Below are positions 1 through 7,489 of a stretch of DNA of 9,045 bases, piece after piece (position 1 is the first letter of the stretch; every line of letters begins with the position of its first letter). Both the position numbers and the translations under genes were made by a program. This DNA is from a bacterium. Lineage in GTDB: Bacteria; ARS69. Where the stretch lies: the NCBI GenBank assembly GCA_025774865.1, contig JALGZO010000359.1:1-9045 (forward strand), in the 5' to 3' direction. The notes beneath the pieces are model-generated. The model did not search any database. It saw nothing but the letters and a program-made list of their open reading frames with translations, and was not told where the DNA came from.

Positions 1-1465
1 GCACCCACAGGTGCGTGCGCTTCACGACGAAGCCCCGCCCCAGGTCGTCGAGCGTGGCGAAGCTGATCGGGGTGTCCGCCGGGATCTCGATCTTGAACGA
101 GCCGTCCGAATAGACGGGAGCGAAGCCTATCAGCGCGCGCTTCTCGAACTCGTTCGCCGAGAAGTCGCCTCGCTCGCCGCGTTGAGTCGGGCGCGCGGCG
201 ATCACTGCGATTTGGTCGATGGCATCGGTGCCGCGGACGGGCACTTCCTGCCCGTCTTGCGCGCCGTTCCGATTGAAGACGTCCTGCGCGAGGAAGATGC
301 CCGTCGTCTGGCTGTGGTCCACCGTCGATTCGATGACCGGAGGACGAGCGCGCGGCGCGATCAGCTGGGCGTCGTACTCGTTGGTCGCGGGATCGTTGTA
401 GAGGAACGTCAGGTCCTGGATAGAGAGGGTCGCGGGGTCCTCTGGAGTGCCTGCGCCTTCCTGCGCGAGGGTGAACGTGTACAGTGCGTAGTCGACGTCT
501 TCCTCCGTCGCGGCCGGCAGCGTGTACGACGCGATGTAACGGTTCTCCCCGAGCGGGAACGGGTACTTGAACGCGCCGTAGGTCCATGGCGCGCCGTCGG
601 TGTTCACGTTCGCGGTGAGTACGTCCCAGTGCAGGTTGCTGTCCGCGGCGGGCGGATCGGCCGGACCCTGCTCCGGCTTGATCAACGCGATCGGACCGGC
701 GTCTTCGTTGATCATCGTCGATTCGATGGCAACGAGTCGTCCGTCGCCCGTCGGCTGCGCGTGGAAGAAGTTCCGGTTGTGCGGGCCGAAACTGTGGAAC
801 GTGCCGGTACCGTCCGGATTCATCGCGAACAGAGGAAAGCGGTTGAACGTTCCGAAGTGGTCCCAGCGCGTGTAGACGACGCGACCATCGGGCAGCAGCG
901 CCGGATCGAAATCGTCGCTCTGGTTGAAGCTGATGCGCTCCATCGCGGAGCCGTCGTGGTTACACACGTAGAGGCGCTCGGCCGGCGAGTGGTTGTACTC
1001 GTCCATCTCGTCGTCACGGGAGCTCGTGAACAGGATCTTGCCGTCCGGCCGGTAGAGCGGGTCGAAGTCGTGCCCGCCCCCGGACGTTATCTGGCGGAGG
1101 TTTCCGCCATCGGCGTCGATCTCCCAGATGTTGCGATCGGACGCGCCGGGGGGGCGCATCGAGAAGAGGATCTTCGTGCCGTCGAAGGACACGCACGGAT
1201 CGGAGACGCTCGCCCCGACGAAGTTCGTCAGAGGCGTCACGTTGCCGTCGGGCGCGATCGGGGAGATGCGGTAGAGATTGCCTTCCGCCCAGCTCCGATT
1301 GAGCGTTTCCTCGCCCGTGGTCTTCACGAACACGAGCGCCGCGGTGGTCTCTTCCGACACGATCAAGTCGTCGGGCGCGCTACTGCGACAGCCGGCGAGA
1401 AGGAGCACCACCCCGGTCCCCACGAACAGGCCTCGAAATCGTGGCCGCGAATCGCTGCTTTTCAT
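1..1465 (-). CDS. HzsA-like PD40/TolB-propeller lipoprotein (3' end cut by window)
   Basis: Large predicted lipoprotein; 488 codons are visible and the C-terminus lies beyond the left edge. Residues 1-26 form a signal peptide ending in a perfect lipobox (LAGC, Cys26), so it should be lipid-anchored and face the periplasm or cell surface. Residues about 85-200 hold PD40/WD40-like blades (SFDGTKILFS, RPDGKILFTSSRD, LPDGRVVYTRWDH). The YTRWDH motif at 198-203 and the following LFAMNPDGTG are typical of the middle domain of hydrazine synthase alpha-like proteins. Further on, APRARPPVIE and DGSFKIEIPADTPISF match the stretch that in relatives precedes a CxxCH heme site; the window ends at RTHLWV, just before it. 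No CxxCH is visible in the part present. The ATG at 1465 has GAGGAG six bases upstream. It is last of three co-directional genes, 38 bp after the barrel gene. The family occurs far outside anammox bacteria, so hydrazine chemistry is not implied; substrate unknown. Confidence 0.85.
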   Translation of the reverse strand, partial: MKSSDSRPRFRGLFVGTGVVLLLAGCRSSAPDDLIVSEETTAALVFVKTTGEETLNRSWAEGNLYRISPIAPDGNVTPLTNFVGASVSDPCVSFDGTKILFSMRPPGASDRNIWEIDADGGNLRQITSGGGHDFDPLYRPDGKILFTSSRDDEMDEYNHSPAERLYVCNHDGSAMERISFNQSDDFDPALLPDGRVVYTRWDHFGTFNRFPLFAMNPDGTGTFHSFGPHNRNFFHAQPTGDGRLVAIESTMINEDAGPIALIKPEQGPADPPAADSNLHWDVLTANVNTDGAPWTYGAFKYPFPLGENRYIASYTLPAATEEDVDYALYTFTLAQEGAGTPEDPATLSIQDLTFLYNDPATNEYDAQLIAPRARPPVIESTVDHSQTTGIFLAQDVFNRNGAQDGQEVPVRGTDAIDQIAVIAARPTQRGERGDFSANEFEKRALIGFAPVYSDGSFKIEIPADTPISFATLDDLGRGFVVKRTHLWV

Positions 1466-1471
1466 GAACAT

Positions 1472-1477
1472 CTCCTC
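1472..1477 (-). promoter_or_regulatory. Ribosome binding site for the HzsA-like gene
   Basis: GAGGAG on the minus strand, six bases before the ATG at 1465. It fixes the start immediately before a clean lipoprotein signal peptide and suggests the gene is translated independently although it is the third gene of the operon. Confidence 0.7.
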
Positions 1478-1503
1478 GGGGGTGGTTGCTTGACGGCGAC
1501 GGC

Positions 1504-2124
1504 TCATCGGTCGAGACCTCGATAGAAGGCGAGCGCGACGGTGGTCTCTGCATAGCGGTACGCGACGGTGCCGCCGCTTTCGCCGCGGCCGCCGAGAGCA
1601 GTGACGCTGCGCGCCTCGAGCCGGAGAGCGACGTCGTCGCGGACGTAGAGCTCCACGCCGCCACCGGCGGTGAGCGTGTTCTTCGTGACGGGATCGCTGT
1701 TCAGGGACTCGCCCGGGTAGACCAGGATCATCCCGTAGCCGAGCGATCCGTACGGCTGTATCCGCCAGGGCAACGGATACCGGACGATGGCGCTCAGCGT
1801 GTGCAGGAGCGCATGGACTGCCTCTCCGGGGTTGTGTCCGACCGCGGCTTCCCAGCCGAGCCGGTCGTTCGGGTTGTATGCGACTCGCAATACGTAGAGC
1901 CGTTCGCTTCCCAGTTGTCCGAAACCCGGGCTGAACGAGATTCGCGAGAGGAACGGTCGCGCCCCTGCGTCGAGCCGGAGCGGGTCCTTGGCGAGCTCGG
2001 GCACGAGGTATTCGCGCCCGTTGAAGACTGCCGAGGGCGACGTGTCGTCAGTCTCCGCGGGGGAATCCGCGAGCACGAGGCCCGGCAGGCACAGCAGCGC
2101 GAGCGCGAGGGCGCGGCGGCTCAC
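1504..2124 (-). CDS. Exported outer-membrane beta-barrel-like protein
   Basis: 206-residue protein starting at GTG 2124. The GTG shares four bases with the TGA of the upstream cytochrome-like gene (GTGA overlap), which argues for translational coupling. Residues 1-19 are a signal peptide (Arg-Arg, then a Leu/Ala-rich core, probable cleavage at VLA-DS). The mature part alternates polar and hydrophobic/aromatic residues in short strands separated by Gly/Asn/Asp turns, for example RLYVLRVAYNPNDRLGWEAAVG, given here as its two halves RLYVLRVAYN and DRLGWEAAVG, then IQPYGSLGYGMILVY, LTAGGGVELYV and TTVALAFYRG near the C-terminus. This pattern and the size fit a small, roughly eight-stranded outer-membrane barrel of the OmpA-like/'beta-barrel domain' type. 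I cannot assign a specific family. Its place between two envelope lipoproteins suggests a shared envelope function, but eight strands would be too narrow for an open electron conduit. The long upstream extension of this frame is the shadow of the preceding gene and is not part of the protein. Confidence 0.75.
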   Translation of the reverse strand: MSRRALALALLCLPGLVLADSPAETDDTSPSAVFNGREYLVPELAKDPLRLDAGARPFLSRISFSPGFGQLGSERLYVLRVAYNPNDRLGWEAAVGHNPGEAVHALLHTLSAIVRYPLPWRIQPYGSLGYGMILVYPGESLNSDPVTKNTLTAGGGVELYVRDDVALRLEARSVTALGGRGESGGTVAYRYAETTVALAFYRGLDR

Positions 2125-2543
2125 CGGAATTCCCCCGCGAGGATCCAGTCGAGGATCGTCTGATAGCCGGCGTCGTCGGGGCTCGTGAACGGTTCCCAGC
2201 TGTGGGTCGCTCCGCCGGCGTCGGCGGCGAGAGGCTTTGTCAGGAGCGAGCTCATCTCCGGCGACCAGGGATCCACCTGAAGGCGGGCCTGCTCGAAGTC
2301 GAATGCCGCATCGAGCGCGGTCAGAGGTGACAGCTCGAAGGTCCCGCGGATTCCGCCCCCGTGACACTCGACCGCGTGGCAGCCGGCGTCGACCAGCACC
2401 GGAGCGACGCGCGTCTGGAACTGCGCGTAGTCCAGATGGTAGTCCTCCCCGCCCCCGGCCGGCGTCGGGGCCGTGCCGGGGTCGGCGCATCCGCCAGCCC
2501 CTCCGGCGAGGGCGACGAGAACCGCTGTTTCAATCCTGAGCAT
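2121..2543 (-). CDS. Small cytochrome c-like lipoprotein with one C-x4-C-H site
   Basis: 140-residue protein starting at ATG 2543. Residues 1-19 form a hydrophobic export signal ending GAGGC; Cys19 is the likely lipidated residue although Ala at -3 is not the usual Leu. A Pro/Gly-rich linker is followed by FQTRVAPVLVDAGCHAVECHGG. Its core reads Cys55-His-Ala-Val-Glu-Cys60-His61-Gly-Gly, a C-x4-C-H site where standard c-type cytochromes have C-x2-C-H. The remainder (FELSP, LQVDPWSPEMSSLLTKPL, THSWEPF, YQTILDWI) matches the small one-heme-like domains common in planctomycete and related envelope proteins, where the tail helix reads 'Y..il.WI..G'. It is first of the three-gene operon with the beta-barrel and the HzsA-like lipoprotein. 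Likely role: periplasmic electron transfer or a heme-bearing partner. Whether heme is actually attached at this spacing is uncertain. The start at 2543 is preferred over an in-frame ATG at 2651 because only the former opens directly on the signal peptide. Its Shine-Dalgarno match is weak. Confidence 0.8.
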   Translation of the reverse strand: MLRIETAVLVALAGGAGGCADPGTAPTPAGGGEDYHLDYAQFQTRVAPVLVDAGCHAVECHGGGIRGTFELSPLTALDAAFDFEQARLQVDPWSPEMSSLLTKPLAADAGGATHSWEPFTSPDDAGYQTILDWILAGEFR

Positions 2544-2897
2544 TCTCAACTCGGCGTGAAGGCGTGGGGTTCGTGTGGAAGACCGGAGTCCAGCAAGGGA
2601 CGGGCCAGCAAAACCGATGGCGTCGGTGCCGCAGGATTGGCGGCGGTTCACCGAGTTTCGCAGTCGCGCGCAGCGAGCCGAGCCGGCAACTGTGCAAAGC
2701 CAAAGGAGGCTGGGCAGATTGCGAACATCTCGAGGCCGACGATTGCCGGCGATTCGTCATGACTTGCGCCCGTCCCACAAGAACTGCTAAAGCCGGTCGT
2801 GAATCAGGACGATTTGCAAGCGATCGACAGGAATCACGACGACCACGCGTCTCGGCGAGGATCGGTGGTTTCCGTACGTGGGAGGAGGGATCAGCAG
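2544..2897. other. Divergent intergenic region between envelope operon and lipoprotein gene
   Basis: 354 bases without a convincing gene. It must hold the promoters of the minus-strand operon (from 2543) and the plus-strand lipoprotein gene (2898). I looked for -35/-10 pairs on both strands and found only weak matches (for example a TTGCGC-like box with a poor CTAAAG partner on the plus strand), so I call none. Short open frames here have no recognisable protein character. No long inverted repeat or tRNA-like fold was seen. Confidence 0.5.
2884..2889 (+). promoter_or_regulatory. Ribosome binding site deciding the 2898 start
   Basis: GGAGGG, the downstream part of the purine run GGAGGAGGG at 2881-2889, lies eight bases before ATG 2898. 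It selects this start over an in-frame ATG at 2799, which would add 33 charged residues in front of the lipoprotein signal. Confidence 0.75.
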
Positions 2898-3737
2898 ATG
2901 CGATTCGTGGATTGGAAGTTCAGAAGGCTCGCGTTCCTCGTCGTGCTGCCGGTCGCGCTGTTCAGCGGCTGCGGCGACGACCAGACCAGCAACGATCCGG
3001 TGCAGCCCGTCTCGGAGCAGACGGCCGTGGAGGCCGCGGTAGCCACGACCGAGTTCATCGACACCTTCATCAACTCGATCGCAACCGTTATCACCGGAGA
3101 CCTGACGGGCGGTCTCGCGACGCTGCGTCTGCCGTCCTCGATGGTAGGCGACATCTCGAGGGACGATGTCTGTCTGAGTCAGGCGGCGACCTGCGAGCAA
3201 AGCTGGGACGGCACGAATCATACGGCGACGTGCAGCTCGACCAGTCAGGATTGCTCGGTCACGGCTCTCGTGCTCGTCCAGTTCCTAGATCAGCTCGGTC
3301 AGTCGCAGGCGGAGCCGGACCAGTCGACCGAGGAGTTCACGTACAACGTCGACATGACCATCGACTTCGTGGTCACGGAAGCGCCCCCGGGTCGTGCCGC
3401 CGACTTCATCGACTACTACTTCGACTTCAACAACGACATGTCGGTACGGGACATCCCGCAACAGGTGTATCAGGCGCAGGGCACCGGATCGATGGATCTT
3501 CGAATCTCCGGAGAGCTGGATGGGCAGACGTTCGACGAGGCGGCCGGCATTTCCTGGTCGTACGACCTCGACGTACCGGCGAAGGGCGGATGCTCGACGG
3601 GAACGGTCCAGATCTCCGTGGGCCAGTACACCGCCGTCGCGACCTACGGTTCGACTGGTCAATACACCGTGGTGGTGTTCCTCGACGGCCAGGAGGTTCA
3701 TCAGGAGCAAGGAACCTCCAGCTGCATGTTGGGCTAG
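2898..3737 (+). CDS. Hypothetical lipoprotein with six mature cysteines besides the anchor
   Basis: 279-residue protein of unknown function. Residues 1-25 are a typical lipoprotein signal: basic N-region, hydrophobic FLVVLPVAL core, lipobox FSGC with Cys25 as the anchor, then GDDQ. Asp at +3 and +4 but Gly at +2 gives no classical inner-membrane retention signal, so outer-membrane sorting is plausible. The mature chain is acidic and Thr/Ser/Gln-rich. Residues 40-70 look helical (VEAAVATTEFIDTFINSI). After that come four clustered cysteines (92, 99, 112, 119) in a Ser/Thr-rich segment, then beta-type sequence. Cys232 and Cys276 near the C-terminus bracket two short strand-rich repeats (TAVATYGSTG, TVVVFLDG). 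Six mature cysteines could form three disulfides in the periplasm. I do not recognise the family. The gene stands alone, divergent from the cytochrome-like operon, and is followed by a strong hairpin, so it is probably monocistronic. Confidence 0.8.
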   Translation: MRFVDWKFRRLAFLVVLPVALFSGCGDDQTSNDPVQPVSEQTAVEAAVATTEFIDTFINSIATVITGDLTGGLATLRLPSSMVGDISRDDVCLSQAATCEQSWDGTNHTATCSSTSQDCSVTALVLVQFLDQLGQSQAEPDQSTEEFTYNVDMTIDFVVTEAPPGRAADFIDYYFDFNNDMSVRDIPQQVYQAQGTGSMDLRISGELDGQTFDEAAGISWSYDLDVPAKGGCSTGTVQISVGQYTAVATYGSTGQYTVVVFLDGQEVHQEQGTSSCMLG

Positions 3738-3780: not shown

Positions 3781-4809
3781 TCAGTCGGAGATCGTGTTGC
3801 GCCCGGCGTTCTTGGCCGCGTAGACGGCCTGGTCGGCCCGAGCGATGAGCGTGGTGGGGGTCTCGCCGTCCTCGGGGTAGGTGGCAACCCCCAGGCTCAA
3901 CGTGACGCAGCCGAGCGGCTGCGTCTCGCGCCCTTCGAAGGGATACCCCGCCACGGCGATCCGGATCGAGTCCGCGAGCTCGAGACCATCCTCCTTGGAG
4001 AAGCGGGGAAGAAGCGCGACGAGTTCCTCACCGCCGTAGCGGGCCACGATTCCTCGGTCACCCACCTTCTCGGTGGTCAGTTTCGCGATCGCCTTCAGAA
4101 CGCGGTCGCCGGCGAGGTGGCCGTGCGTATCGTTGAACTGCTTGAAGTGGTCCACGTCCATGAACACGACCGAGACCGGCGTGTGATCCTTCTCGGCGAC
4201 GTTCAGCACGCGAATCAGAGCGTCACGAAAGCTCCGATGGTTGTAGAGCCCCGTGAGCCCGTCTCGATTCGCGGACTCCTTCAAGTTGTCGGCCAGACGG
4301 ACGAGGGCGGTGTTCGCTTCGTTGAGGTCTGACGCCTTGGCCCTCAGTTGCTCCGTCAGTCGTCGGTTCTCTTCGACCAGGGCGGCCTTGTCGGCGGCCC
4401 GGTTGACCACCGACGTGATCACGGCGAGCTCGTCGAACGGCTTGCGCATGAAATCGTAGGCGCCGGACCGCAGCGCCCCCATGGTCGCCTCGATCGTCGC
4501 ATGGCTCGTCATGATGACGACGACAGTGTCGGAGTCGAGGGCCTTGACTGCGTCGAGAAGCTCGAGCCCGGACATCTTTCCCATCACGATGTCGGTCACG
4601 ACGACCGGATGCGGTCGGTCCCGAAACACGGCGAGGGCGCGCTCGCCGCTTTCGACCGCCGTGACCTCGTAGCCCTCCTCCCGGAGGACCTCGCTGATCA
4701 CGAGGCGGAGCGTCTCTTCGTCCTCGGCCAGGAGCACGGGCGGACGGCTCTTCTTCGGCTCGGACCGCGCCGACTCGCGGGGCCTCTCGATGGGATTCTC
4801 GGGTCGCAT
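3781..4809 (-). CDS. Response regulator-type diguanylate cyclase (REC-GGDEF)
   Basis: 342-residue cytoplasmic protein predicted to make cyclic di-GMP from two GTP when its receiver domain is phosphorylated. After a charged tail (1-22) comes a REC domain (about 24-142) with the acidic pocket Glu29-Asp30, phospho-acceptor Asp73 (VVVTDIVMGKMSG), switch Thr101 and Lys123 (KPF). Residues 143-180 are a heptad-like Glu/Leu/Asn-rich linker, probably a dimer coiled coil as in PleD/WspR-type enzymes. The GGDEF domain starts at RDGLTGLYNHRSF (182-194). It has MDVDHFKQFND (217-227) with metal/GTP-binding Asp218 and the HGHLAGD turn, and the signature YGGEEL (258-263), an active-type variant. The RxxD inhibitory I-site normally found six residues before the signature is missing (GDRG at 250-253). 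No histidine kinase gene is in the window, so its partner is encoded elsewhere. The ATG at 4809 follows GGGGAGAG with unusually short spacing; the exact start is therefore less sure than the function. Confidence 0.93.
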   Translation of the reverse strand: MRPENPIERPRESARSEPKKSRPPVLLAEDEETLRLVISEVLREEGYEVTAVESGERALAVFRDRPHPVVVTDIVMGKMSGLELLDAVKALDSDTVVVIMTSHATIEATMGALRSGAYDFMRKPFDELAVITSVVNRAADKAALVEENRRLTEQLRAKASDLNEANTALVRLADNLKESANRDGLTGLYNHRSFRDALIRVLNVAEKDHTPVSVVFMDVDHFKQFNDTHGHLAGDRVLKAIAKLTTEKVGDRGIVARYGGEELVALLPRFSKEDGLELADSIRIAVAGYPFEGRETQPLGCVTLSLGVATYPEDGETPTTLIARADQAVYAAKNAGRNTISD

Positions 4810-4980: not shown

Positions 4981-5937
4981 ATGCTTCGTCGGCGATGGAC
5001 TCGATGGCAGATCGGTCTGCCGCTTCTGGCCGGGATCGCGGTCGTGGCCGCCGCCGTCGGTGATCCCGGCGAGGAGTCGGAGACGGGATCCGGGCTGGCC
5101 CCGAGCTGGGAGGAGCTCGCCAACTTCACGTTCGAAGGCGTCTACCCGCGGCCGGTTCGCCTGACCGACGGCCGCTGGGAGGGGGACCCCTTCGTGCCGG
5201 ACGGAGCGTCGCGCCCGTCGCTCGAGATCGCCGACCCGGTTCTGGTCACGGGTGACCTCGACGGAGACGGCTCGGACGAGGCCGTCGTCCTTCTCATGCA
5301 GGCCTCGGGGGGGAGCGGGCTCTTCCATCACCTGGCCGTTGTCAGCCGGGAGGGCGGCGCCCTGGTGCAGCGGGGAGCCGCCCCGCTCGGGGACCGCGTC
5401 CAGATCCGGGCCGCTCGGGTGGACGGCGAGCGGGTCATCCTGGAAATCGTCCAGGCTGGCCCCGAGGACGCGATGTGTCGCCCGACGGAGAGGGCCGAGC
5501 TCGTCTGGGAGCTGTTGGATCGGGGGCTCACCCAGATCTCCAGCCGGTTGACCGGGACGCTGTCGATCGCGGATCTCGAAGGGGTCGAGTGGGTGTTGGA
5601 GCGCTTCTCCCGGCAGGAGCCGGCCCCGGGAGACCCCGAGGCGACTCTCGTGGTCGAGGGGGATCGGATTGCGGGCTCGAGCTTCTGCAACCACTACATC
5701 GGCACCGTGACCGGGGCCGCGCCGGGCGAGATCGAGATCGGCCCGCTCGCCGCAACGCGCATGAGCTGCCCCGAGCCGGCGGCGAGCCTGGAGATTCGCT
5801 TTTGGCAGTCACTCGGGGCGGCCCACAGGTTCGCCTTCTTGAACGGGAAGCTGGCCCTTTCGATTCGGCGGGACGGTTCCCTGGAGACGCTGATGTTCAC
5901 GCCCCGCGCCCCGGCCGTAGGCGGCGCTCAGCGGTAG
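4981..5937 (+). CDS. Exported META (HslJ-like) domain protein
   Basis: 318-residue protein. Residues 1-27 contain an Arg/Trp-rich N-region and a hydrophobic LPLLAGIAVVAAAV segment with no lipobox cysteine. This is either a cleaved signal peptide or a membrane anchor, placing the rest in the periplasm. The first mature domain (about 40-195) carries VTGDLDGDGSDEAVVLL (89-105), a Ca2+-loop/FG-GAP-like Asp-rich turn, then GGSGLFHHLAVV and LGDRVQIRA, a layout I recall from other META-associated exported proteins. The C-terminal META domain (about 200-312) shows VEWVLERF with Trp204, IAGSSFCNHYIG with Cys236-Asn237, and LAATRMSCPEP with Cys263. The two cysteines are the conserved pair of HslJ-type domains. 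META proteins are linked to heat shock, novobiocin resistance and envelope stress, but the biochemical activity is unknown. The ATG at 4981 lies just after a GGGGGG-rich stretch; an in-frame ATG at 4912 gives an implausible charged extension. The stop overlaps the convergent beta-helix gene by 10 bp. Confidence 0.85.
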   Translation: MLRRRWTRWQIGLPLLAGIAVVAAAVGDPGEESETGSGLAPSWEELANFTFEGVYPRPVRLTDGRWEGDPFVPDGASRPSLEIADPVLVTGDLDGDGSDEAVVLLMQASGGSGLFHHLAVVSREGGALVQRGAAPLGDRVQIRAARVDGERVILEIVQAGPEDAMCRPTERAELVWELLDRGLTQISSRLTGTLSIADLEGVEWVLERFSRQEPAPGDPEATLVVEGDRIAGSSFCNHYIGTVTGAAPGEIEIGPLAATRMSCPEPAASLEIRFWQSLGAAHRFAFLNGKLALSIRRDGSLETLMFTPRAPAVGGAQR

Positions 5938-7292
5938 CGGCTCTTCACGCGTGTCCAGGACTCCGCTTGCACCGAGAAGAGCTCGCATCCGACGTCGATC
6001 GCGCCGACGAGTCCACAGCCGCTCTGGGCCGCGGCGCACGGCGAGTCGGACCGAATCGAGAGATCGGGTTCGTCCAGGTCGCAGAACAGCGGGTCGTCCG
6101 CGAAGTTGCCGTTCTGATCCGCCCAGCTGGCCAGACAGTCGACCCAGTCGCCGGCGAGATTGCCCCAGACGTCGGTGCAGGCGACGCTGATCGTCGCCCC
6201 CTCTCCGCAGCCGACCGGGCCCCCGTTGGCACCGAAGGCGAAGATGCATGTCGTCACGTCCGCGGTGGCCGCGGACACGTCCCTCTCCAGGAAGAGGTGG
6301 TCCCCGACGTCGGCCGACGAATTCCGCAAGAACGTCGTGCGAGTGAGCATGACGCTGCCACCCCCGACGTAGATGGCGCCGCCTCGCGCCGTCGAATCGG
6401 CGGATCCGGTCGTGCGGTTTCCGTCGAAGATGCTTCGCTGGATGTCGGCTCGCGCGCCCGCTCCGACCGTGACCGCTCCCCCCTCGTCGCTCGTGACGTT
6501 GTTGCGGAACGTGCACCCCTGAATGAGAACCGATGAGCTGCCGGTCACCGTCACGGCCCCGCCCGAGCGCCGGCCGTCGTTGGCGAGGAGCCGGCAACCG
6601 AAGAGCCCGGCGACCGAGTTCTCCGCTCCGAAGGCCCCGGAAGAGCTATCGGCGGTGTTGCTCTCGAACAGACAGGTCTCGTAGACGGCAAACGGTGCGC
6701 CACCCAGGAACACCGCGCCGTGCCGCGATGCGTGATTGCCGACGAACGTGCAGTCGATGAGGTGGGTCTCCGCGCTGCTGCCGTGAAATGCCCCGCCCCA
6801 TCCCCCGGCGACGTTGGATTCGAATCGGCACGCATCCAGCGTGAGCAGCGAGTTCTCCGCGTAGACGCCGCCGCCGTGCCCGCCCCCTTCGACCTGGCCG
6901 CCTTGGAACGTGCAGGAGCTGAACGACACGGTGGACCCGACGCAACGGAGGCCACCGCCGGACTCGCCGGCGACCGCTGGACTCGCATTGCGAACCGTGA
7001 GACCGACGATGTCGCAGCCCGCGACGCCATCCGCGACGAACCCGCGACCGGCGCCACCCGCATCGATCACGACGCAATCCGGCTGACCGGTCGCCCCGGA
7101 GACCACGACTCCCGTCTTCAGCACGAGATCCCGCTCGAAGTACGTTCCGCACGCGATTTCCACGAGGTCGCTCGCTTGCGCAGCCGCGAGCGCGGCACTG
7201 ATCGTGGGGTAGTCGCCGGGAACCCGCAGGGTGCCGGCCGCCAGCGGGAGCGGCGCCATGAGCAGGCAAGGAGCGAGTTGGAAAGGTCTCAC
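5928..7292 (-). CDS. Secreted right-handed parallel beta-helix repeat protein
   Basis: 454-residue predicted exported protein. Residues 1-20 form a short signal peptide (RPFQLAPCLLMAPLPLAAG). TLRVPGDYPTISAALAAA at 21-38 is the usual entry cap of these helices ('VP.dypTIq.Al'). From about 45 to 350 there are roughly ten coils of 22-28 residues with recurring 'GGA.....S...I..CTF.NN.A' patterns (GGGVYAENSLLTLDACRFESN, shortened here to GGGVYAENS and LDACRFESN; GGAVTVTGSSSVLIQGCTF; GGAIYVGGGSVMLTRTTF). This is the Pmp/pectate-lyase-like fold. The tail GNFADDPLFCD (395-405), SPC (417-419) and CGLVGAIDVGC is a recurrent C-terminal motif in proteins of uncultured FCB-related bacteria. Only about 18 residues follow, with no recognisable type IX sorting domain, autotransporter barrel or FlgD-like Ig domain. 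No catalytic acid cluster is evident, so a surface/adhesive or polysaccharide-binding role is more likely than lyase activity. The GTG at 7292 was chosen for its GGAAGG site and signal peptide; the open frame extends to 7484. Confidence 0.85.
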   Translation of the reverse strand: MRPFQLAPCLLMAPLPLAAGTLRVPGDYPTISAALAAAQASDLVEIACGTYFERDLVLKTGVVVSGATGQPDCVVIDAGGAGRGFVADGVAGCDIVGLTVRNASPAVAGESGGGLRCVGSTVSFSSCTFQGGQVEGGGHGGGVYAENSLLTLDACRFESNVAGGWGGAFHGSSAETHLIDCTFVGNHASRHGAVFLGGAPFAVYETCLFESNTADSSSGAFGAENSVAGLFGCRLLANDGRRSGGAVTVTGSSSVLIQGCTFRNNVTSDEGGAVTVGAGARADIQRSIFDGNRTTGSADSTARGGAIYVGGGSVMLTRTTFLRNSSADVGDHLFLERDVSAATADVTTCIFAFGANGGPVGCGEGATISVACTDVWGNLAGDWVDCLASWADQNGNFADDPLFCDLDEPDLSIRSDSPCAAAQSGCGLVGAIDVGCELFSVQAESWTRVKSRYR

Positions 7293-7298
7293 GACGTG

Positions 7299-7304
7299 CC
7301 TTCC
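7299..7304 (-). promoter_or_regulatory. Ribosome binding site deciding the beta-helix start
   Basis: GGAAGG on the minus strand, six bases before GTG 7292. The signal peptide starts right at this GTG, whereas the 64 codons further upstream look non-coding, so this site decides the start. Confidence 0.65.
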
Positions 7305-7440
7305 GAGTGCGTCCAGGGTAGCGTGGTCCTCCGACCGCCACAACGGCGCCCGGCTCAGCGCACTGGGGAGAAGCCTCTCCGGCAGGTGTCGAGTCCATCG
7401 CCCCCCTGAATCGGAGAGCGTCGGACCCCGACGTGGCGTC

Positions 7441-7457
7441 ACTTTTTCCTTGAAAGT
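7441..7457. repeat. Short inverted repeat ACTTT/AAAGT
   Basis: ACTTT (7441-7445) and AAAGT (7453-7457) flank a 7-base spacer. It directly abuts the stronger 7-bp repeat at 7458-7475, making a tandem pair of palindromes just upstream of the predicted promoter. Five-base arms alone could be chance. Confidence 0.35.
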
Positions 7458-7475
7458 AGCCTGACGAATCAGGCT
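7458..7475. promoter_or_regulatory. Perfect inverted repeat AGCCTGA-CGAA-TCAGGCT, operator candidate
   Basis: Two perfect 7-base arms (7458-7464 and 7469-7475) separated by CGAA. It covers the predicted -35 box at 7461-7466, the placement expected for a repressor-binding palindrome. No T-run follows on either strand, which argues against a terminator. The AT-rich setting in an otherwise GC-rich intergenic region supports a control role. The binding protein is unknown. Confidence 0.5.
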
Positions 7476-7489
7476 GAATAGCATATGAT
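7461..7489 (+). promoter_or_regulatory. Predicted sigma70-type promoter of the polysaccharide operon
   Basis: CTGACG (7461-7466, four of six matches to TTGACA) and TATGAT (7484-7489, five of six matches to TATAAT) at an ideal 17-bp spacing, pointing at the glycosyltransferase gene. A start site near 7496 would be expected. The -35 box is embedded in the inverted repeat at 7458-7475. Confidence 0.45.

Follow-up and report, generated by a model that had tools for sequence, protein, structure and literature searches.

An envelope operon that links an HzsA-like protein with the thioredoxin, DUF4266 and DUF3570 genes of a flavinylation system

Results

Gene organization and conservation of the operon

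The window, that is the whole stretch of 9,045 nucleotides analysed here, is one contig (C363) of a 785-contig genome (G000; completeness 92.65, contamination 8.3). Near its first position lie three genes for envelope proteins, which raises the question of whether these form a unit of their own and what such a unit would do. As recorded in the preliminary description, the three genes run in one direction, on the minus strand, with a GTGA overlap and a 38-bp gap. The first (2121..2543) encodes a lipoprotein of 140 aa with a CX4CH motif (CHAVECH). The second (1504..2124), which has a GTG start within the GTGA overlap, encodes a small β-barrel of 206 aa with a signal peptide, and the third (1..1465) encodes an HzsA-like lipoprotein with a PD40 β-propeller and the first part of an HZS_alpha domain, and runs off the contig. 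The 38-bp gap separates the barrel gene from the HzsA-like start at 1465, and a probable ribosome-binding site (GAGGAG, minus strand) is present in the sequence at 1472..1477. An alternative start is the ATG at 1507; read in frame, GAGGAG corresponds to an invariant 'EE' that precedes the HzsA-like start in three family members.

A second contig of the same genome (C753) completes the HzsA-like gene and carries the remaining genes of the operon. Positions 1..109 of the window overlap the end of this contig over 109 bp with one silent mismatch, and the gene continues on the minus strand at L004:3566-4189, which encodes the motifs CVGCH and CASCH. A repeat artefact was ruled out as the source of the overlap, and the join was accepted because relatives hold all these genes contiguously, in the same order, on one contig. 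The completed protein is 673 aa from the first ATG and 659 aa from the preferred start. On the same strand, 9 bp after the HzsA-like gene, C753 encodes a TlpA-type thioredoxin (WCKPC), followed with a 4-bp overlap by a DUF4266 lipoprotein that ends in GGGCACN, a DUF3570 protein with the sequence DAISGAS, and an NHL protein with an end of the FlgD/secretion-tail type. The three-gene set first described is thus real and conserved, but it is only the front part of the operon, and the view of a closed trio was dropped once C753 had extended it.

When 84,980 genomes were scanned with an HzsA-like profile, 12 loci were obtained, all from metagenome-assembled genomes (MAGs) titled Eisenbacteria, Krumholzibacteriota, Gemmatimonadota or bacterium. 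The order CX4/5CH protein, barrel, HzsA-like protein, thioredoxin, DUF4266, DUF3570, NHL was kept in all 12, so that the conservation expected in Eisenbacteria- and Krumholzibacteriota-type genomes was indeed found. Loci on sufficiently long contigs continue with a lipoprotein, a second barrel, an SH3-barrel, a 189-aa protein, and coiled and TPR proteins, and the full gene set also occurs in two more families (L059, L061). The small barrel gave only weak Pfam matches, below the cut-off, to OMP_b-brl and OmpA_membrane; a homologue was present at the equivalent position in 12/12 loci.

The HzsA-like protein

Pfam analysis of the part of the gene in the window gave PD40 (E 1e-11) and HZS_alpha (E 1.3e-8). 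The HZS_alpha domain (PF18582) scored 35.7 bits in the window half and 44.5 bits in the C753 half, against a curated cut-off of 26.6. The completed protein has a β-propeller, an HZS_alpha domain and two CxxCH motifs (CVGCH, CASCH), which bears out the earlier assignment as an HzsA-like PD40 lipoprotein with a C-terminal heme-type site. Lack of a heme motif in the full-length protein, or of a conserved gene order in relatives, had been named as grounds to reject the proposed three-gene set; both were checked, and the set withstood both checks. When a three-member profile was searched against the PDB, the best structure was Kuenenia HzsA (5c2v, E 8.6e-26). The alignment spans the propeller and the heme-αI and heme-αII regions, with CVGCH and CASCH opposite CSGCH and CAMCH of 5c2v, and a 12-member profile gave a concurring result. 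Two CxxCH motifs at the HzsA heme positions were present in 13/13 HzsA-like members, and from these motifs the protein likely carries c-type heme. Five histidines of the propeller are invariant (172, 216, 237, 242 and 248, in the numbering of the L057 protein) and could possibly form a metal or substrate site.

The small CX4/5CH lipoprotein

The lipobox Cys19 as well as Cys55, Cys60, His61 and His114 are invariant in the 13 homologues of the small lipoprotein. A canonical CXXCH was absent from all of them: the cysteine spacing is CX4CH in 3/13 and CX5CH in 10/13. The C-x4-C-H motif of the preliminary description therefore holds only for the window and the two relatives nearest to it, and the other ten relatives have CX5CH. 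The spacing shifts from CX4CH to CX5CH inside one orthologous family, while the sequence CHGGGIRG stays invariant. None of the 13 members matched a Pfam family, and the structure model (pLDDT 73) had no match in a fold search of the PDB, which is no evidence for a new fold. On the conserved residues we propose a mono-heme or another metal/thiol protein; with a spacing this variable, the presence of heme is uncertain.

Downstream genes and the DUF3570 barrel

Meheust et al. 2021 (PMC8238504) described a flavinylation system whose core consists of DUF3570, DUF4266, thioredoxin and ApbE, and it is the downstream thioredoxin, DUF4266 and DUF3570 genes that tie the operon to it. The statement that no named system matches applies to the trio alone and no longer to the operon as a whole. 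The operon shares with the published DsbD/ApbE/DUF3570/thioredoxin-like/DUF4266 clusters the thioredoxin, the terminal CxC of DUF4266, the ApbE-type motif in DUF3570 and, in several relatives of the window, an adjacent ApbE gene. It differs in the fixed HzsA-like lipoprotein with its two heme motifs, in the small barrels and the NHL, SH3 or TPR proteins, and in a divergent DUF3570 that mostly has one relaxed motif. Flavinylation clusters that lack DsbD also occur (PMC8238504).

The DUF3570 domain (PF12094) was matched with E 1.5e-42 in the C753 protein and with E 7e-45 and 1.5e-47 in two relatives (L039, L040). The flavin motif D..[ST].AS is present in 13/13 DUF3570 proteins of the window's kind. 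The strict SGAS form was found in the window genome, L047 and L057, and the other ten have the relaxed DAI[ST][TS]AS; in most Eisenbacteria-type proteins TTAS or TSAS thus replaces the strict [S/T]GA[S/T], and there is one site, not two. In L049, L052, L056 and L061 an ApbE gene directly precedes the operon on the same strand. The window genome has a single ApbE gene, on another contig (C74) beside a polyprenyl synthetase gene and away from the operon. A DUF4266 protein ending in C[AG]C sits between the thioredoxin and DUF3570 in every locus. Its tail, GGGC[AG]C[NK], is nearly invariant across loci and resembles a modification or metal-binding tail.

In the structure model (pLDDT 78), DUF3570 forms a barrel of 16 long strands with a C-terminal Phe, and its fold matches are outer-membrane barrels (Z up to 17.8). 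The predicted flavin motif (residues 91-94) lies in a long loop (75-106) that joins strands 3 and 4. If the barrel follows normal porin topology, this modelled loop would be outside or folded into the pore. ApbE modification (flavinylation) of DUF3570 has been shown for Chlorobium luteolum, where the protein required extraction from the insoluble pellet (PMC8238504), as is expected of a porin-like barrel. The small barrel had been put forward as the outer-membrane anchor; from the structure model, the 16-strand DUF3570 barrel is the likelier hub. MtrCAB resembles this arrangement in the idea of an outer-membrane barrel that carries a redox cofactor route, but the DUF3570 barrel differs in having 16 strands and, where MtrCAB has a multiheme plug, a covalent-flavin site in a loop. 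MtrB was one of many barrels that the model matched; a match of this kind is common to barrels in general.

Co-occurrence of HZS_alpha and DUF3570

The co-occurrence of the two genes was determined in 386 genomes, mostly of other families than the window's. HZS_alpha was found in 19/386 and DUF3570 in 23/386, and both were present in 8 genomes versus 1.1 expected (P 2e-6); excluding the window's own family, the numbers were 5 versus 0.75 (P 4e-4). In 7 of the 8 genomes with both, the two genes are linked. In the eighth (G351), a counter-example, HZS_alpha is encoded within an HzsBC-type cluster. Linkage of the HzsA-like gene with DUF3570 was seen under five family labels (f1, f99, f159, f174 and f220).

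The family f220 was entered via a linked case (G286) and is large, with mostly near-complete genomes, some of them single-contig. An HzsA-like gene is present in 20/59 f220 genomes, and a divergent DUF3570 subfamily (Pfam E ~1e-25 to 1e-39) is present in exactly these 20. All 18 inspected loci have a divergent version of the operon that encodes, in this order, the HzsA-like protein, an SH3-barrel, a barrel, the thioredoxin, DUF4266, DUF3570 and a coiled protein; the CX4/5CH protein is absent from the f220 loci. The HzsA-like proteins have two CxxCH motifs in 19/19 examined, and all 19 DUF3570 proteins retain the flavin motif D..[ST].AS, in the form D..[ST][GS]AS. Plasmid records were searched for relatives of the f220 HzsA-like protein, and none were found. 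The family holds two DUF3570 subfamilies, of which the ordinary full-length one is more widely spread. Two divergent genes (872-885 aa and 454-464 aa) are conserved upstream in 18/18 f220 loci.

Discussion

Proposed function of the operon

Our analysis established, by computation, the gene content, order and linkage of the operon, its heme and flavin motifs, the barrel model, and the lack of HzsB/C and of a key tyrosine (see below). An electron-handling envelope machine is proposed because an HzsA relative with two heme motifs, a thioredoxin and a covalent-flavin barrel share one operon. The earlier suggestion of an envelope assembly with redox proteins agrees with the thioredoxin, the heme and flavin motifs and the barrels. 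We consider it rather probable, with some reserve, that the operon builds an outer-membrane thiol-flavin-heme electron-transfer complex, for which we infer occupancy by heme and FMN, physical association of the proteins, an electron flow with its direction, and a substrate. On this view the window contains the 5' portion of a single long envelope operon, which runs from the CX4CH lipoprotein through the NHL/FlgD protein and in relatives goes on with another lipoprotein, two additional barrels and TPR/coiled proteins. The thioredoxin (and DUF4266) would supply thiol electrons, and these would pass to FMN bound by ApbE to the long loop of the DUF3570 porin-like barrel. The di-heme HzsA-like propeller would exchange electrons with this FMN or spend them on a small substrate, a role in which the CX4/5CH protein would join it in the window's lineage only. 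The proposal is weakened by the relaxed, single-site motifs of most Eisenbacteria-type DUF3570 proteins, by the failure to identify a membrane electron donor in the cluster, and by the absence of the CX4/5CH protein in f220 and the remote ApbE gene of the window genome.

An assembly or maturation system is the alternative that survives best, although we regard it as unlikely. The thioredoxin and DUF4266 would then hold cysteines in the reduced state for the insertion of heme or metal, and the SH3, TPR and NHL/FlgD proteins and the barrels would assist in building or secreting a surface structure; the HzsA-like protein would serve as a structural or sensory subunit and the flavin as a thiol redox partner. 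The TlpA-like nature of the thioredoxin is in keeping with such a role, as this fold serves in cytochrome c maturation too, and so are the SH3-barrel, TPR and coiled proteins conserved in the operon and the FlgD/secretion tail of the NHL protein. However, two CxxCH motifs plus a flavin site in every member exceed what a pure assembly factor needs.

Relation to hydrazine synthase

It is very improbable that the HzsA-like protein is a nitrogen-cycle enzyme that, like hydrazine synthase, forms or cleaves an N-N or N-O bond, even though HzsA is its closest solved structure and all domains are matched. A PD40 propeller, HZS_alpha and the heme-αI and heme-αII CxxCH motifs are common to HzsA (5c2v), the clade I-IV homologues of PMC12758564 and the window protein. 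Tyr591 of HzsA, at position +4 after the heme-αI CxxCH, is a heme ligand (PMC12758564). The residue at this position is T in the window protein; the 12 relatives have T, E, R, G, H, M or V and in no case Tyr. No HzsB/HzsC or fused partner gene adjoins the DUF3570-linked loci tested (L059-L061), and a search for HzsB/C in the window genome gave weak domain-level matches only; an HzsB/C fusion gene was present at seven other HzsA-like loci and in a cluster of G002, a genome of the window's family. Hydrazine synthase identity was rejected because both the heme-ligand tyrosine and the HzsB/C partners are absent. A neighbouring FG-GAP CRTAC1 gene is missing as well, and the partners of the window protein (thioredoxin, DUF4266 and DUF3570) are unlike those of HzsA homologues.

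In a tree of 28 HzsA-like proteins, a single clade (100/99) unites the eight core DUF3570-linked members of the window's kind and sets them apart from the HzsBC-adjacent proteins, which also argues against a nitrogen-cycle enzyme; the f220 protein sits on a long branch whose position is unsure. The two types are distinct, since G002 has a separate, ordinary cluster (L042, G002:C244, 1-9575) of CRTAC1, HzsA-like, HzsBC-like fusion and c554-like genes. This cluster also contains two ABC substrate-binding proteins and fits clade III of PMC12758564.

Chance, or shared ancestry of a few genomes, is a hardly credible account of the linkage between HzsA-like and DUF3570 genes: the relatives of the window come to no more than a few MAGs from related lineages, but linkage under five family labels, the co-occurrence counts, the 18/18 f220 loci and the exact presence/absence match in the 59 f220 genomes (20/59) refute it as a general account.

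Coupling of two published halves

The two halves of the operon are already published apart, and their coupling is the new part: our literature search found no report that joins the HzsA-like half with the DUF3570 flavinylation half, and neither main text mentions the other half. PMC8238504 mentions neither hydrazine synthase nor PD40, and PMC12758564, on HzsA homologues with HzsBC, names none of DUF3570, thioredoxin and ApbE. In the library searched, DUF3570 turned up in a single paper. PMC10732223 suggests for HzsA homologues a broader family with other substrates. Going further than an electron-transfer complex, the operon might represent an undescribed class of outer-membrane redox conduit, in which a porin-like barrel with FMN covalently bound in a loop would be fed by periplasmic thiols and coupled to a repurposed di-heme propeller of the hydrazine-synthase type, which would act on an extracellular or periplasmic substrate. 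This extension is tentative, and we think it rather doubtful; if true, it would point to a wider machine family from which hydrazine synthase may derive. The coupling ties two open questions together and opens both to experiment. Many f220 species have the module, as do uncultured phyla, and f220 likely includes cultured, gene-deletable species, because its sampled genomes are mostly near complete and some are single-contig.

Other genes

An unrelated genome (G020) contains two tandem-like HzsA-like genes without the heme-αII domain (L041, 4305-6329 and 11394-13424, minus strand), each followed by a large NHL-type protein, with DUF3570 and HzsBC absent nearby. In the window, a response regulator with a GGDEF domain (3781-4809, minus strand) and a right-handed β-helix protein (5928-7484, minus strand) are ordinary and lie outside the operon. 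The divergently placed gene at 2799-3737 (plus strand) encodes a lipoprotein of no known family, and a homologue with 25% identity occupies the matching place in L057.
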